64,000 bases of DNA from Leifsonia shinshuensis (lineage in GTDB: Bacteria; Actinomycetota; Actinomycetes; Actinomycetales; Microbacteriaceae), in assembly GCF_013410375.1 (NCBI RefSeq), contig NZ_JACCFL010000001.1, positions 310,001-374,000 on the forward strand. Direction: 5' to 3'. A model generated the notes under the pieces. The model did not search any database. It was not told where the DNA came from and worked only from the letters and a program-made list of their open reading frames with translations. A program made the translations under genes and the position numbers. Shown one piece after another: positions 24,195-59,307 of the stretch (the stretch's first letter is position 1; each line of letters opens with the position of its first letter).

Positions 24195-24455
24195 ATGGCA
24201 CGCACCAAGTCCAAGACCAAGCTCGAGCGCTCCGCCCGTCCCGAGCGCAGCTCGGCCGCAACCGGCGAGGACGCCCCCAACCCCGTCTGGTTCAAGCCCG
24301 TCATGTTCGGCTTCATGCTGCTCGGGCTCATCTGGATCATCGTCTTCTACGTCAGCCAGAACCAGTACCCGATCCCGGCCCTCGGCGCGTGGAACATCCT
24401 GGTCGGCTTCGGGATCGCCTTCATCGGCTTCCTGATGACCACCCGCTGGCGCTGA
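24195..24455 (+). CDS. crgA: Cell division protein CrgA
   Basis: An 86-residue protein: a basic N-terminus (ARTKSKTKLERSAR), then two membrane helices (VMFGFMLLGLIWIIVFYVS and NILVGFGIAFIGFLMTTRW) joined by the conserved loop QNQYPIPALGAWN. CrgA recruits FtsI/PBPs and FtsQ at the septum in actinobacteria. It stands beside pknB-srtE as in other members, divergent from srtE. Confidence 0.96.
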   Translation: MARTKSKTKLERSARPERSSAATGEDAPNPVWFKPVMFGFMLLGLIWIIVFYVSQNQYPIPALGAWNILVGFGIAFIGFLMTTRWR

Positions 24456-24481: not shown

Positions 24482-24612
24482 TTATCCACAGCAGTTCTCC
24501 CCACAGCCCACACTCCCGCAGTCGGCTTCTCCCCAGTGTTAATAAGCCTGTGGAGAGTTACACCGGTGTAATTATCCCCACTGTTAATAAGGCTGTGGAT
24601 AACTTATCCACG
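24482..24612. other. DnaA-box cluster (oriC-like element), not at oriC
   Basis: The 207-base gap between crgA and the rhomboid gene is AT-richer than its surroundings. Boxes: TTATCCACA (24482-24490, perfect, plus strand), TTATCCCCA (24572-24580, one mismatch), TGTGGATAA (24594-24602, perfect, minus strand), TTATCCACG (24604-24612, one mismatch) and a weaker TGTGGAGAG (24549-24557). TTATCCCCA followed by TGTTAATAA recurs at oriC (38902-38921). It is a candidate DnaA titration or initiation-control site. Confidence 0.75.
24534..24606. repeat. Imperfect direct repeat of a TGTTAATAA-TGTGGA module
   Basis: Two copies of about 27 bases start at 24534 and 24579 (CAGTGTTAATAAGCCTGTGG and CACTGTTAATAAGGCTGTGG), each followed by a purine-rich stretch and TTA. 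Related sequence occurs in oriC at 38702-38719. Confidence 0.75.
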
Positions 24613-24662: not shown

Positions 24663-25520
24663 TCAGGCGAAGTGCAGCAGGCTGGCGCCCACCAGCACCA
24701 CGCAGAGCGCGACGATCAGCGGCGTCTGCCAGCGGCGGCGCGAGGGCTTGCGGGTCTCGACGTAGATCAGGCCTGCGAGGGCGCCGCCCACCAGGCCGCC
24801 GACGTGCGCCTGCCAGGCGATGTTCATGCCGGGCAGGAAGCCGATCGCGAGGTTGAGCCCGACCAGCACCAGGATCTGCATCCCGTTGCCGCCGAGCCTC
24901 CGCTGGATGACGAAGAACGCGCCGAGCATGCCGAAGATGGCCCCGGAGGCCCCGATCACCGGCTGGCCGGCCGGCGAGAGCAGCAGGACGCCGAGCGAGC
25001 CGGCGAACCCGCTGATCAGGAACAGCGTGAGGAACCGCGCGCGGCCGAGCACGGGCTCGAGCGCCATGCCGAAGATCCACAGCGTGTACATGTTGAGCGC
25101 GATGTGGATGATGTTCGCGTGCAGGAAGACCGAGGTCAGCATCCGCCACGGCTCGAAGCCGATCTGCGGCGACAGCGACCCGGACGGGTACGAATAGGCG
25201 CCCGCGTACAGCAGCGAGTTCGTGACCTGGGAACCGATGATCGGCAGGTTCTGCAGGATGAACACCACGATGCAGACGCCGATGATCGCGTACGTGACGA
25301 CCGGGGCGCCCGGCCCGGTCAGGCGGGACACCCAGGGCGAGCGCGTGCGTGGCGCGGTGGCACGCTGCTGTGCCATGCACTCCGGGCAGATCACCCCGAC
25401 CGCTGCCGGAGTCTGGCACTCACCGCAGATCGGCCGGCCGCAGCGCTGGCAGCGGACGTGGCTGACGCGATCGGGATGGCGGTAGCAGACGCTCGTCGGA
25501 GCGTCGACGGGCTGAGACAT
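24663..25520 (-). CDS. Rhomboid family intramembrane serine protease with N-terminal zinc finger
   Basis: 285 residues. A B-box-like zinc finger (CYRHPDRVSHVRCQRCGRPI, then CGECQ and CPECM) occupies residues 12-50. Six or seven membrane helices follow. The catalytic Ser is in GASGAIFGML and the His in QAHVGGLVGG; the HANIIHIALNMY helix carries the oxyanion His/Asn. Rhomboids cleave membrane proteins in the bilayer; this substrate is unknown. Codon use is normal. Confidence 0.93.
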   Translation of the reverse strand: MSQPVDAPTSVCYRHPDRVSHVRCQRCGRPICGECQTPAAVGVICPECMAQQRATAPRTRSPWVSRLTGPGAPVVTYAIIGVCIVVFILQNLPIIGSQVTNSLLYAGAYSYPSGSLSPQIGFEPWRMLTSVFLHANIIHIALNMYTLWIFGMALEPVLGRARFLTLFLISGFAGSLGVLLLSPAGQPVIGASGAIFGMLGAFFVIQRRLGGNGMQILVLVGLNLAIGFLPGMNIAWQAHVGGLVGGALAGLIYVETRKPSRRRWQTPLIVALCVVLVGASLLHFA

Positions 25521-38568: not shown

Positions 38569-39006
38569 GAAGTCTCCCCTGGTCGGCGCTCGGATACGAA
38601 CGACACCGATCCTAGCGCTTGGCCTTCGGCGCAGAAGTTGTCATTCGAGCAAGCGCTTGAGGTTGTCGGCCGGCCTTAACTGAGAAGGATTAATCATTAA
38701 TGGTGTTAACCGCTGTGGAAAATGTGGATAACTCGGTGGATACCTTGCAATCACCGGGAACTACAGCTCCGTGACTTGTTGATGAGCGGTGGATTCCCAC
38801 TGTTGACAAGGATGTCGGACGAGAAGCCGCCGCACGGCTTTTCACAGCCGTGGACCGTTCGTCCCCATTAATCGAGCGACTTTCCGGAACTTCTCCACAA
38901 GTTATCCCCAGGTGTTAATAACGAACTCTCCCCACTCTGGGGATCAATCTGTGGATAACTTTCTCGAGCGGCCGCGGCGTGGCGTGCTCCCGTGCCCGGC
39001 CGCCGG
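38569..39006. other. oriC: Chromosomal replication origin region (dnaA-dnaN intergenic)
   Basis: A 438-base gap between dnaA and dnaN, the known place of oriC in actinobacteria. DnaA boxes seen: TGTGGATAA at 38723-38731 and 38950-38958 (perfect, minus strand); TGTGGAAAA 38714-38722, TTCTCCACA 38891-38899 and TTATCCCCA 38902-38910 (one mismatch each). AT-rich stretches (TTAATCATTAATGG near 38690, GTGTTAATAA 38912-38921) are candidate unwinding sites. Confidence 0.9.
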
Positions 39007-40431
39007 CTACTTGCCGTAGCGGTGGTTCTGCTTGATCCGGCTGGTGAGCTCCGTCACCTGGTTGTAGATCGAGCGCCGCTCCTTCATGAGCTCGCTGATC
39101 TTCTTGTTCGCGTACATCACGGTGGTGTGGTCGCGGCCGCCGAAGAGCTGCCCGATCTTCGGGAGCGAGAGGTTGGTCAGCTCGCGGCACAGGTACATCG
39201 CGATCTGGCGCGCGGTGGCGACGGCCTGCGAACGGCTCGACCCGTAGAGGTCGTCGACGCTGAGCTTGAAGTACTCCGCGGTGTTGGTGATGATGTCCGT
39301 CGGCGCGATCACGTTGTCGTCGTCGAGGGTGATGAGGTCCTTCAGCACCGTCTGCACCAGCGGCATGTCGACCGGGGTGCGGTTGAGGCTCGCGAACGCG
39401 GTGACCCGGATGAGGGTCCCTTCCAGCTCGCGGATGTTGCTGGAGACCTTCGACGCCATGAACTCGAGGATGTCGTCGGGGACGAGGATCTTCTCGCTCT
39501 GCGCCTTCTTGCGGAGGATCGCGATGCGGGTCTCGAGGTCCGGAACCTGGACGTCGGTGATCAGGCCCCACTCGAACCGCGACCGCATCCGGTCCTCGAA
39601 GCCGGTCAGGTGCTTCGGCGGGAGGTCGCTGGTGATGACCACCTGCTTGTTGTGGTCGTGGAGGGTGTTGAAGGTGTGGAAGAACGCCTCCTGCGTCTCG
39701 ACCGCCCGCTGCAGGAACTGGATGTCGTCGATCAGGAGGATGTCGATGTTCCGGTAGCGCGCCTGGAACGAGGAGCCGCGGTTGTTGGCGATCGAGTTGA
39801 TGAAGTCGTTCGTGAACTCCTCGCTCGACACGTAGCGGACGCGGATGCCCGGGTACAGGCTCATCGCGTAGTGGCCGATGGCGTGCAGGAGGTGCGTCTT
39901 CCCCAGCCCGGAGTCGCCGTAGATGAAGAGCGGGTTGTACGCCTTGGCCGGGGCCTCCGCCACGGCGACGGCAGCGGCGTGGGCGAAGCGGTTGGACTGG
40001 CCGATGACGAAGTTGTCGAAGCTGTACTTGGAGTTGAGGCGGGTGTCGCCGTTGCGCGGGGGCGCCGTGATCTCGGTCGGCGGCGCCACCATGGGCGCGA
40101 CGGCCTCCAGATACGGGGCGGGCTCCGGCTCGGACGGGCCGGCCATCGACTCCTGCTGGATCTCGGGGTTGACCACGATCGCGAAGGTGTTCACCTCGAG
40201 CGCCTGGTCGAGGTTGCCGATCGCGTTGAGGAGCGGGACCCGGCTGCGCTGCTCGATCATCCCGCGCGTGAACTCGTTGGGCACTTCGAGGTAGAACGTG
40301 CCGGCCATGATGCCCTTGGGCTCGACCAGGCTGAGGAAGCCGTGCAACTGCGGGGTGATGCGGTCGTCCGTCTCGAGATTGTCGAGCACGTTCTGCCATG
40401 CCGCAGAAATGGACTCTTCGCCGCCTGCCAT
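39007..40431 (-). CDS. dnaA: Chromosomal replication initiator protein DnaA
   Basis: 474 residues. Domain I, a Pro-rich domain II (residues about 95-135), and AAA+ domain III with Walker A GDSGLGKTHLLHAIG and Walker B LLIDDIQFL follow. Domain IV has the box-binding helix GGRDHTTVMYANKK. It initiates replication at the adjacent oriC. Boxes upstream of its start suggest autoregulation. Confidence 0.98.
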   Translation of the reverse strand: MAGGEESISAAWQNVLDNLETDDRITPQLHGFLSLVEPKGIMAGTFYLEVPNEFTRGMIEQRSRVPLLNAIGNLDQALEVNTFAIVVNPEIQQESMAGPSEPEPAPYLEAVAPMVAPPTEITAPPRNGDTRLNSKYSFDNFVIGQSNRFAHAAAVAVAEAPAKAYNPLFIYGDSGLGKTHLLHAIGHYAMSLYPGIRVRYVSSEEFTNDFINSIANNRGSSFQARYRNIDILLIDDIQFLQRAVETQEAFFHTFNTLHDHNKQVVITSDLPPKHLTGFEDRMRSRFEWGLITDVQVPDLETRIAILRKKAQSEKILVPDDILEFMASKVSSNIRELEGTLIRVTAFASLNRTPVDMPLVQTVLKDLITLDDDNVIAPTDIITNTAEYFKLSVDDLYGSSRSQAVATARQIAMYLCRELTNLSLPKIGQLFGGRDHTTVMYANKKISELMKERRSIYNQVTELTSRIKQNHRYGK

Positions 40432-40544: not shown

Positions 40545-40649
40545 TTATCCACCGCTGTGTGTGCAATACCGTAGCGATCTCCGGCCGCTTTTGGGATGGG
40601 CTGGGGATAACTTTCGAGTTCACGCTAACTTGTCCACAGGTGTGGATCA
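40545..40649. promoter_or_regulatory. DnaA boxes upstream of dnaA
   Basis: The 442-base gap between the divergent dnaA and rpmH contains TTATCCACC (40545-40553), TGGGGATAA (40602-40610), TTGTCCACA (40630-40638, perfect actinobacterial form) and TGTGGATCA (40641-40649). These probably autoregulate dnaA and could add to origin function. No gene is seen in the gap. Confidence 0.72.
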
Positions 40650-56928: not shown

Positions 56929-57381
56929 ATGTCGAAGGTTATTCTCACGCACGAGGTCACCGGCCTCGGTTCCGCCGGTGACGTCGTCGACGTCAAGAAC
57001 GGCTACGCACGCAACTACCTCGTCCCGCAGGGCTTCGCCATCGTGTGGAGCCGTGGTGGCGAGAAGCAGGTCGAGCAGATCAAGGCGGCGCGCGCCGCTC
57101 GCGAGCTGCACACGATCGAGGCTGCCCAGGACCTCAAGGCGAAGCTGGAGGCGACCCGCGTCAAGCTCGTCGTCAAGGCCGGCCGCGAGGGCCGTCTGTT
57201 CGGTTCCGTGAAGACGGGCGACGTCGCCGACGCGGTCAAGGCCGCCGGCATCGGCGAGCTCGACAAGCGCAAGATCGAGCTCCCCAACCCCATCAAGGTG
57301 ACCGGTGACCACGAGGCCACCGTCCGCCTGCACGACGACCTCTCGGCCGTCATCTCCCTGCAGGTGGTCGCCGCCAAGTAG
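56929..57381 (+). CDS. rplI: Ribosomal protein bL9
   Basis: 150 residues. [30 protein letters not shown] and a C-terminal domain ([16 protein letters not shown]) are typical. Last gene of the rpsF operon; a strong terminator follows. Confidence 0.97.
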
Positions 57382-57430: not shown

Positions 57431-57578
57431 CGCGTTAAGGGAGTTTTCCCCGGCTCCATCCACAGAGCAGAAACACCCGTGGACACCGCAGATCACAGGG
57501 CGCCGAGAAGTTTTTACACACAGCCTGGGGAATAGGAAAAAGCTGGTCAAGAGCTGTTTTCTCCGCAAAGAATTCTGG

Positions 57579-57690
57579 TTTTCCACAGCGCATCCCACAT
57601 CTTGTGCACAGACGCGTCGGCGTTTCGCCCAGATTCTCCCCACACTTATCCACAGGTGGAGTTGTGGGGGCGGTGAGCGCTTCGTAGGGT
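57579..57690 (+). promoter_or_regulatory. DnaA boxes and candidate dnaB promoter
   Basis: The 552-base gap between rplI and dnaB holds TTTTCCACA (57579-57587, one mismatch) and a perfect TTATCCACA (57646-57654). Directly after it come TTGTGG (57662-57667) and, 17 bases on, TAGGGT (57685-57690), a plausible -35/-10. DnaA control of the replicative helicase gene is thus possible. No gene is seen in the remaining GC-rich leader to 57933. Confidence 0.5.
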
Positions 57691-57933: not shown

Positions 57934-59307
57934 GTGTCGATCGCCCATATCGGTCTCGCCGACAGCCGCGAACCGGGCGAGGCCCGTTCTCCCGAGCGCA
58001 CCCCTCCCCACGACCTCCTCGCAGAGCAGAGCGCCCTCGGCGGCATGCTGCTCAGCAAGGACGCCGTCGCGGACGTCGTGGAGGTCGTGCGCGGCACGGA
58101 CTTCTACATTCCCAAGCACGAGATCATCTACGACGCGATCCTCTCGCTGTACTCGCACGGCGAGCCGACCGACGTCATCACCGTGACCGACGAGCTGACC
58201 AAGCTCGGCGAGCTCTCCCGCGCCGGCGGCGCCGAGTACCTGCACACGCTCACCAGCCTCGTCCCGACCGCCGCCAACGCCGGCTACTACGCCAACATCG
58301 TCACCGAGAAGGCGCTGCTGCGCCGCCTGGTGGAGGCGGGCACCCGCATCACGCAGATGGGCTACAAGGCGGAGGGCGAGGTCCTCGACCTCGTCAACAA
58401 CGCCCAGGCCGAGATTTACTCCGTGACGGGGCACCAGGAGGTCGAGGACTACGTCCCCCTCACCGAGGCCGTGACGGTCGCCATCGACGAGATCGAGGCC
58501 GCCAAGCACAAGGACGGCTCGATGACCGGCGTGCCCACCGGCTTCGCCGAGCTGGACGAGCTGACCAACGGCCTCCACCCCGGGCAGATGGTGATCGTCG
58601 CCGCCCGCCCCGCGCTCGGAAAGTCGACCCTCGCGCTCGACTTCGCGCGCGCCGCCGCCATCAAGCACGACATGCCGACCATCTTCTTCTCCCTCGAGAT
58701 GGGGCGCAGCGAGATCGCGATGCGCCTCCTCTCAGCCGAAGCGTCGGTGCCGCTGCAGCACATGCGCAAGGGCACCGTCGACAACCGCGACTGGACCACC
58801 ATCGCCTCCACCCGCGGCCGCATCAACGACGCCCCGCTCTACATCGACGACAGCCCGAACATGACGCTGGTCGAGATCCGCGCCAAGTGCCGCCGCCTCA
58901 AGCAGCGGGTCGGCCTCAAGATGGTCATCATCGACTACCTCCAGCTCATGACGAGCGGCAAGCGCGTCGAGAGCCGCCAGCAGGAGGTCAGCGAGTTCTC
59001 CCGCGCGCTGAAGCTCCTCGCGAAGGAGCTGCAGGTCCCCGTGATCGCCCTCTCCCAGCTGAACCGAGGCCCGGAGCAGCGCGCCGACAAGCTCCCCGCC
59101 CTGAGCGACCTCCGCGAGTCCGGCTCGATCGAGCAGGACGCGGACGTCGTCATCCTCCTCCACCGCGAGTCGGCCTACGAGAAGGACAACCCCCGCGCCG
59201 GCGAGGCCGACCTGATCGTCGCCAAGCACCGCAACGGCCCCACCAAGACCGTGACGGTGGCCTTCCAGGGCATGTACTCCCGCTTCGCGGACATGGCGCC
59301 GATCTGA
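57934..59307 (+). CDS. dnaB: Replicative DNA helicase DnaB
   Basis: 457 residues, GTG start. The N-terminal domain (PPHDLLAEQSALGGMLLSKD) and RecA-like domain (Walker A ARPALGKSTLALDFA, MGRSEIAMRLLS, the IIDYLQLM Walker B, DLRESGSIEQDADVVILLHR) are complete. No intein interrupts it, unlike some actinobacterial dnaB genes. It unwinds DNA at the fork. Confidence 0.97.
   Translation: MSIAHIGLADSREPGEARSPERTPPHDLLAEQSALGGMLLSKDAVADVVEVVRGTDFYIPKHEIIYDAILSLYSHGEPTDVITVTDELTKLGELSRAGGAEYLHTLTSLVPTAANAGYYANIVTEKALLRRLVEAGTRITQMGYKAEGEVLDLVNNAQAEIYSVTGHQEVEDYVPLTEAVTVAIDEIEAAKHKDGSMTGVPTGFAELDELTNGLHPGQMVIVAARPALGKSTLALDFARAAAIKHDMPTIFFSLEMGRSEIAMRLLSAEASVPLQHMRKGTVDNRDWTTIASTRGRINDAPLYIDDSPNMTLVEIRAKCRRLKQRVGLKMVIIDYLQLMTSGKRVESRQQEVSEFSRALKLLAKELQVPVIALSQLNRGPEQRADKLPALSDLRESGSIEQDADVVILLHRESAYEKDNPRAGEADLIVAKHRNGPTKTVTVAFQGMYSRFADMAPI

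Follow-up and report, generated by a model that had tools for sequence, protein, structure and literature searches.

What is a cluster of DnaA boxes doing about 14 kb away from the replication origin? This question is raised by a short stretch of Leifsonia shinshuensis DNA between crgA and a rhomboid protease gene, within the 64,000-nucleotide window analyzed here (310001-374000 of a 4.42-Mb genome; coordinates below are those of the window unless stated). An earlier note had reported two exact and two near-exact boxes in 24482-24612 and read them as a duplicated origin fragment serving as a DnaA reservoir or timing element, in the manner of datA or of DnaA-reactivating sequences (DARS), or else as a second initiation site. 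We confirmed the boxes, two matching TTATCCACA exactly and two with one mismatch; at the observed genome rate, the probability of at least four such sites in a given 131-bp stretch is ~2e-11. The element is probably a control site of long standing that ties chromosome replication to cell division, and not a stray origin copy. For the fuller explanation, in which it is a DnaA regulatory site of ancient descent, separate from the origin, that acts in a DARS-like mode and carries a palindrome bound by a dimeric protein, here called X, we consider the chances to be about even.

Anatomy of the element

We found that the element consists of two tandem three-box DnaA modules flanking a palindrome, in the gap between the convergent crgA and rhomboid genes. 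Three of its features had escaped the first reading: TTATTAACA in the place of a DnaA box, the 14-bp palindrome, and the true conserved unit, 24527-24612, to which the box at 24482 is therefore external.

24482-24490, plus strand: DnaA box, exact TTATCCACA, beyond the 86-bp core; flank boxes differ among species
24527-24612, no strand: 86-bp conserved element (ungapped alignment of 26 genus genomes, mean column identity 95%)
24527-24535, plus strand: module 1 box I, TTCTCCCCA
24537-24545, minus strand: module 1 box II, TTATTAACA (TGTTAATAA on the plus strand)
24549-24557, minus strand: module 1 box III, CTCTCCACA
24558-24571, no strand: 14-bp palindrome TTACACCGGTGTAA, candidate operator of a dimeric regulator
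24572-24580, plus strand: module 2 box I, TTATCCCCA, one mismatch to TTATCCACA
24582-24590, minus strand: module 2 box II, TTATTAACA, TGTGGA-type in many of the family's other genera
24594-24602, minus strand: module 2 box III, exact TTATCCACA
24604-24612, plus strand: extra box TTATCCACG, one mismatch to TTATCCACA, head to head with box III

The sequence TTATTAACA is TGTTAATAA reversed, and we treat its site as a DnaA-box position because TGTGGA-type sequences stand there in many Microbacteriaceae genera. When one mismatch was allowed, TGTTAATAA was found in the window only at 24537, 24582, and 38913, exact in all three cases (shuffle mean 0.11). The last of these belongs to TTATCCCCA-GG-TGTTAATAA at 38902-38921, between dnaN and dnaA, so that the compound module TTATCCCCA + TGTTAATAA said to be common to the element and oriC is indeed present in both. 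At up to one mismatch, TTATCCACA occurs 19 times in the window, against a shuffle mean of 1.69 and a maximum of 6 (100 shuffles), and 163 times genome-wide (72 + 91), the reversed pattern occurring 67 times. A search of the window for TTACANNNNTGTAA with one mismatch allowed gave the palindrome alone, and it is also the sole exact match in the genome. A structured RNA was considered and rejected: none of the 24 pairs of the consensus fold (0/24) had a change on both sides, and we therefore handled the element as DNA.

Conservation and place near the origin

The boxes, whose absence from close relatives would by the earlier note's own account have refuted its reading, are kept throughout most of the genus. 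In a set of 28 Leifsonia genomes, all with a detected CrgA (28/28), the 86-bp element was intact and ungapped downstream of crgA in 26, the two exceptions being G023, where it is truncated by a contig end, and G003 (locus L009), where it contains an insertion. The latter is a reduced-genome species; recurrent insertions are also described for a mycobacterial site in PMC7738170. Among 10 genomes, the mean pairwise identity of the element was 91.7%. The 86 bp at the dnaA-side end of oriC reached 78% and 294 bp of oriC 74%; of the neighbouring genes, crgA (240 bp) reached 84% and the rhomboid gene end (300 bp) 71%. Within the genus, then, the element is better conserved than the compared parts of its neighbouring genes and of oriC. 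In the palindrome, TTACA-N4-TGTAA, the arms are fixed and the central bases vary; the exact form was found in 27/28 genomes, at a single place in 21 and at two places in 6, with none in 1. In G022 one arm base is altered, and the second place in G023, on a separate contig, is taken to be a contig overlap.

Beyond the genus, a sequence-only model of the element matched 251 of 299 family genomes and 75 of 85 genera, a count whose matches were inspected at 24 non-genus loci; palindrome then boxes were present in 24/24 of these, and crgA in 23/24. Among the best 80 of at least 408 named Microbacteriaceae CrgA loci, the palindrome following crgA was exact in 38 and had 1-2 mismatches out of 10 in 37, which alone is weak evidence, boxes being present in most such loci displayed. 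A broader model matched 350/396 order genomes and 292/394 class genomes, although its weak matches may be plain DnaA boxes, including those of oriC. For this reason we consider a count anchored on CrgA, which was detected in 391/394 class genomes, to be sounder: in a non-random sample of 61 class CrgA loci (30 best matches and 31 hand-picked across families), the composite stood beside crgA at a score of at least 33 in 42, from many families, compared with 0/183 shuffles. Of the best matches from outside the class, 11 loci were viewed: 7 had ACA-N4-TGT, boxes, and a CrgA hit, 1 had a palindrome with no CrgA hit, and 3 were box clusters near dnaA. In the phylum set, 55/149 genomes matched at all, many through the box part of the model alone.

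The place of the element relative to the origin can be followed from these landmarks of the window:

24195-24455, plus strand: crgA (PF06781, E 3.2e-30), left neighbour, 3′ end towards the element
24663-25520, minus strand: rhomboid protease gene (PF01694, E 4.7e-35), convergent to crgA
38569-39006, no strand: oriC region, the dnaN-dnaA interval, with the shared module at 38902-38921
39007-40431, minus strand: dnaA (TIGR00362, E 1.8e-157)
57579-57654 (region 57440-57660), no strand: DnaA boxes in the interval between rplI (56929-57381) and dnaB (57934-59307)

Several genus members have a terminator-like hairpin between crgA and the element. Upstream of dnaA, 40545-40649 holds four DnaA boxes, each with one mismatch, which fits autoregulation. 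A further cluster of 3 DnaA boxes in 235 bp (L345:2261-2495, genome 399760-399994) lies 51 kb from oriC, 3′ of a fliD-like gene whose family scores fall under curated cut-offs, with a GTGTAATTCACAC motif close by.

In 14 genomes with dnaA at a contig start, which were picked for a match near that start and are thus biased to short distances, the element lies 10.4-18.3 kb from the contig start; when the predicted place of oriC was fetched in 6 further genus genomes, oriC was there in 6/6, 13.2-16.1 kb from the palindrome. Certain lineages have the module at the dnaA promoter or within oriC itself. Families carry arbitrary set labels here (such as f21 or f33), which are not taxon names: in f3, the module is just upstream of dnaA, at its promoter, in L296, and at the end of dnaA-starting contigs in G514 and G406 (L227 and L228), assuming circular contigs, while L297 looks similar; in the f6 genome of L301, a copy directly follows dnaA.

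Is the element an origin, or a remnant of one? Its sharing of TTATCCCCA + TGTTAATAA with oriC would speak for either, and yet the lowest GC content is 44% (80-bp windows), with no extended AT-rich stretch for unwinding, and cumulative GC skew peaks at oriC/dnaA and does not turn at the element (weak evidence, as it covers only 22-42 kb of the window); dnaA and dnaN do not adjoin it. Duplication of an origin fragment finds no support: the element stands beside crgA far outside the genus, is better conserved within it than the compared part of oriC, and has only box modules in common with oriC. We consider both a second initiation site and an inert duplicated piece highly improbable. A role in chromosome organization, with DnaA and X positioning or anchoring the origin region and DnaA activity left unaltered, would suit the location near oriC in the checked genomes and the number of places at which the exact palindrome was found in the genus (one in 21/28 genomes, two in 6, none in 1); we saw no sign of a segregation function, however, and the module moves to the dnaA promoter or oriC in some lineages, so that this role is very unlikely.

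Box geometry and a likely mycobacterial counterpart

Box orientation separates the two kinds of Escherichia coli sites with which the element can be compared. We take DARS1 to lie at bioD-uvrB and DARS2 beside mutH, and in the stretches so located we computed a single box triple common to both, in the order +-- with spacings of 14 and 12. According to PMC5742627, box I of the three-box DARS core points the opposite way to boxes II and III, whereas the essential boxes of datA run in one direction and datA needs an IHF site; PMC10380432 concurs on a head-to-head box pair in DARS. Both Leifsonia modules have the order +--, with spacings of 10 (I-II) and 12 (II-III). They resemble DARS1 and DARS2 in the three-box core, the opposed box I, and the II-III spacing of 12, and differ in the I-II spacing of 10 instead of 14, in being two, and in lying 14 kb from oriC. 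Where DARS2 has IHF and Fis sites, the Leifsonia element has its palindrome in a comparable place. It is like datA in being an intergenic DnaA-box cluster away from oriC, but its boxes are mixed in direction. The proposal of a DnaA-box element of the datA or DARS sort outside oriC is therefore plausible, with box orientation favoring DARS over datA. Because the I-II spacing is unequal, we class the element as DARS-like in action and not as a DARS.

DnaA-box clusters were reportedly described in Streptomyces by Smulczyk-Krawczyszyn in 2006. Family f33, which we guess to be Streptomyces-like, has DnaA boxes between crgA and the rhomboid gene in 6/6 loci, in likeness to such clusters, but the composite is below threshold there. 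Extra-origin clusters of Streptomyces are also cited in PMC5742627.

A closer likeness is found in mycobacteria, at the gap between Rv0010c and Rv0011c, the latter of which we take to be crgA. In PMC7738170, five strong sites were found with purified Mycobacterium tuberculosis DnaA, and homologous sites by chromatin immunoprecipitation sequencing in M. smegmatis; one of them, Rv0010c-Rv0011c, was bound in vitro and in vivo, in mycobacteria only, and has a palindrome that takes most of the recurrent changes. Variants of this site make cells longer, to about the same extent as do variants of dnaA, whose phenotype the authors compare to that of hypomorphic dnaA, and in dnaA mutants the expression of both neighbours of the site was unchanged. 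The authors find no evident equivalent in other species and do not commit to a function for the site. The Leifsonia element likewise adjoins crgA close to oriC and combines DnaA-like boxes with a palindrome, and in f21, which we infer to be mycobacterial from size, gene order, and motif, forms of AATCACAC-N2-GTGTGATT followed by boxes stand beside crgA. It is thus likely, as judged from gene order and motif, that the two are counterparts, with the differences that the M. tuberculosis gap lies upstream of Rv0010c, whereas that of Leifsonia separates convergent genes, and that Leifsonia carries three-box modules, two of them in tandem. Other sites given in PMC7738170, at rpmH-dnaA and upstream of dnaB, also have boxes at the same kinds of place in our window; the dnaA-upstream and rplI-dnaB boxes are likely their counterparts, and the latter suggest a set of DnaA sites common to Leifsonia and mycobacteria. 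Among the titles and abstract openings listed in literature searches (up to 20 per search, of as many as 6,898 papers), with subscription papers mostly beyond reach, no report of the element outside mycobacteria was found, which does not prove that there is none.

Alternatively, the boxes may absorb DnaA or promote ATP hydrolysis after oriC fires, so that this early-copied site prevents re-initiation. The presence of several boxes near oriC in the checked genomes is consistent with such a sink, as is the repression of untimely initiation in B. subtilis and Streptomyces coelicolor that is mentioned in the literature. However, the essential boxes of datA are unidirectional while those of the element are mixed, and removing a sink should leave more DnaA free, whereas the mycobacterial site variants resemble dnaA variants that the authors liken to alleles of reduced activity. 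We regard a titrating or datA-like role as possible but rather unlikely, and favor a positive, DARS-like role because of the box geometry and because the mycobacterial cell-length phenotype has been likened to that of reduced-activity dnaA.

The palindrome and a possible link to division

The strict form of the palindrome, ATYACACNNGTGTRAT, from which the copy in our window departs at one base, was found at 22 sites in 21/128 class genomes (control 0). At 15 of these sites the palindrome is that of the element, next to crgA or the adjacent rhomboid gene; six of the seven remaining copies, four of them from f37, lie 66-130 bp before a WhiB-family gene. In the genus itself, a near-match precedes the start of a whiB gene by 66-80 bp in 28/28 genomes, in the form AATGACAACGGTGTAATT in 26/28, within the -10 region of a TTGAC-type promoter. 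Among 43 whiB upstream regions from many families, which include the loci where the pattern was first noticed, 26 reached a palindrome score of at least 17; in 860 shuffles the 99th percentile was 16.0 and the maximum 17.5. Conservation upstream of whiB may be partly that of the promoter, because the palindrome's right half is also the -10 hexamer. Pfam assigns the gene to WhiB only, and the name WhiB2 reflects a resemblance. Its recurrence at WhiB-gene promoters makes the palindrome a possible operator for a regulator tied to division.

BldD, WhiA, and ResR/Rv1830 may be considered as candidates for its binder. FtsR (Rv1828) was rejected, as its published 25-bp motif (PMC6683498) is dissimilar. 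HigA2, which according to PMC11205783 binds ATCAC-N6-GTGAT and has one site that the authors equate with the DnaA site, has a motif that fits the mycobacterial form of the palindrome, and we keep it as a lead only.

In the mechanism that we propose, DnaA would occupy both three-box modules, with box I facing II and III, and a dimeric X would occupy the palindrome between them. The DnaA molecules meeting face to face at boxes I and II would aid ADP release, as at E. coli DARS, giving more active DnaA and thereby influencing the time of replication start. X, which probably also controls the WhiB2-type division gene, would stand in for the IHF and Fis of DARS2 and would couple DnaA activity to division.

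One could instead place the regulator at the center, with the boxes adjusting either its binding or some local transcript, such as crgA or an RNA missing from the annotation. The strong conservation and the palindromes at WhiB-gene promoters agree with this, but no promoter is expected in a gap between convergent 3′ ends, no covarying RNA pairs were seen (0/24), and neighbour expression did not change in the mycobacterial dnaA mutants (PMC7738170); such a role is doubtful.

Several observations weigh against the DARS-like explanation. The I-II spacing is 9-12 in most relatives versus 14 in both E. coli cores, and PMC7738170 reports an unchanged initiation rate, so that any effect on timing is presumptive and the DARS-like role remains an inference. 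The order +-- was found in 61/74 Microbacteriaceae loci (other in 13/74; II-III spacing of 12 in 46), but these species are related, and among the 42 class loci the counts (27 +--, 10 with the same order inverted, ++-, and 5 other) are partly built in, since scoring presumed this box order, a bias of which the Microbacteriaceae counts are free. The mycobacterial counterpart was assigned from gene order and motif. The palindrome was not found after crgA in 5 of the best 80 named Microbacteriaceae loci (L112, L115, L121, L134, and L143: two Rathayibacter, two Naasia, and one other member), and 19/61 class loci fell below threshold (f31 7/7, f33 6/6, f6 2, and one each of f2, f24, f40, and f45), although DnaA boxes are still present in the crgA-rhomboid gap of f33 (6/6) and f31 (6/7). 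The seventh strict palindrome (L462:974, second copy of G189) has no WhiB-like frame within ~1 kb and no crgA neighbour was seen. Finally, X may not exist, since Hicks et al. read the palindrome as two DnaA-box-like sequences. Two observations speak against their reading: the outer AAT is conserved at most of the 42 sites, although AAT counted towards the score by which these were chosen, and by-eye inspection showed no DnaA boxes beside the WhiB-promoter copies.

In its most specific form, which we put forward tentatively and hold to be possible at best, our explanation holds that a DARS-like reactivation site dates back to the shared ancestor of two or more actinobacterial classes, and that IHF and Fis have given way in it to the operator of the WhiB2-type gene's regulator, a single regulator then setting both a division gene and initiator activity. 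Control of actinobacterial DnaA outside oriC is poorly known. A widely conserved composite in which the box geometry is defined, and whose palindrome recurs at WhiB-gene promoters, may be a physical link from replication to division control, and it makes this question open to direct tests in laboratory species.
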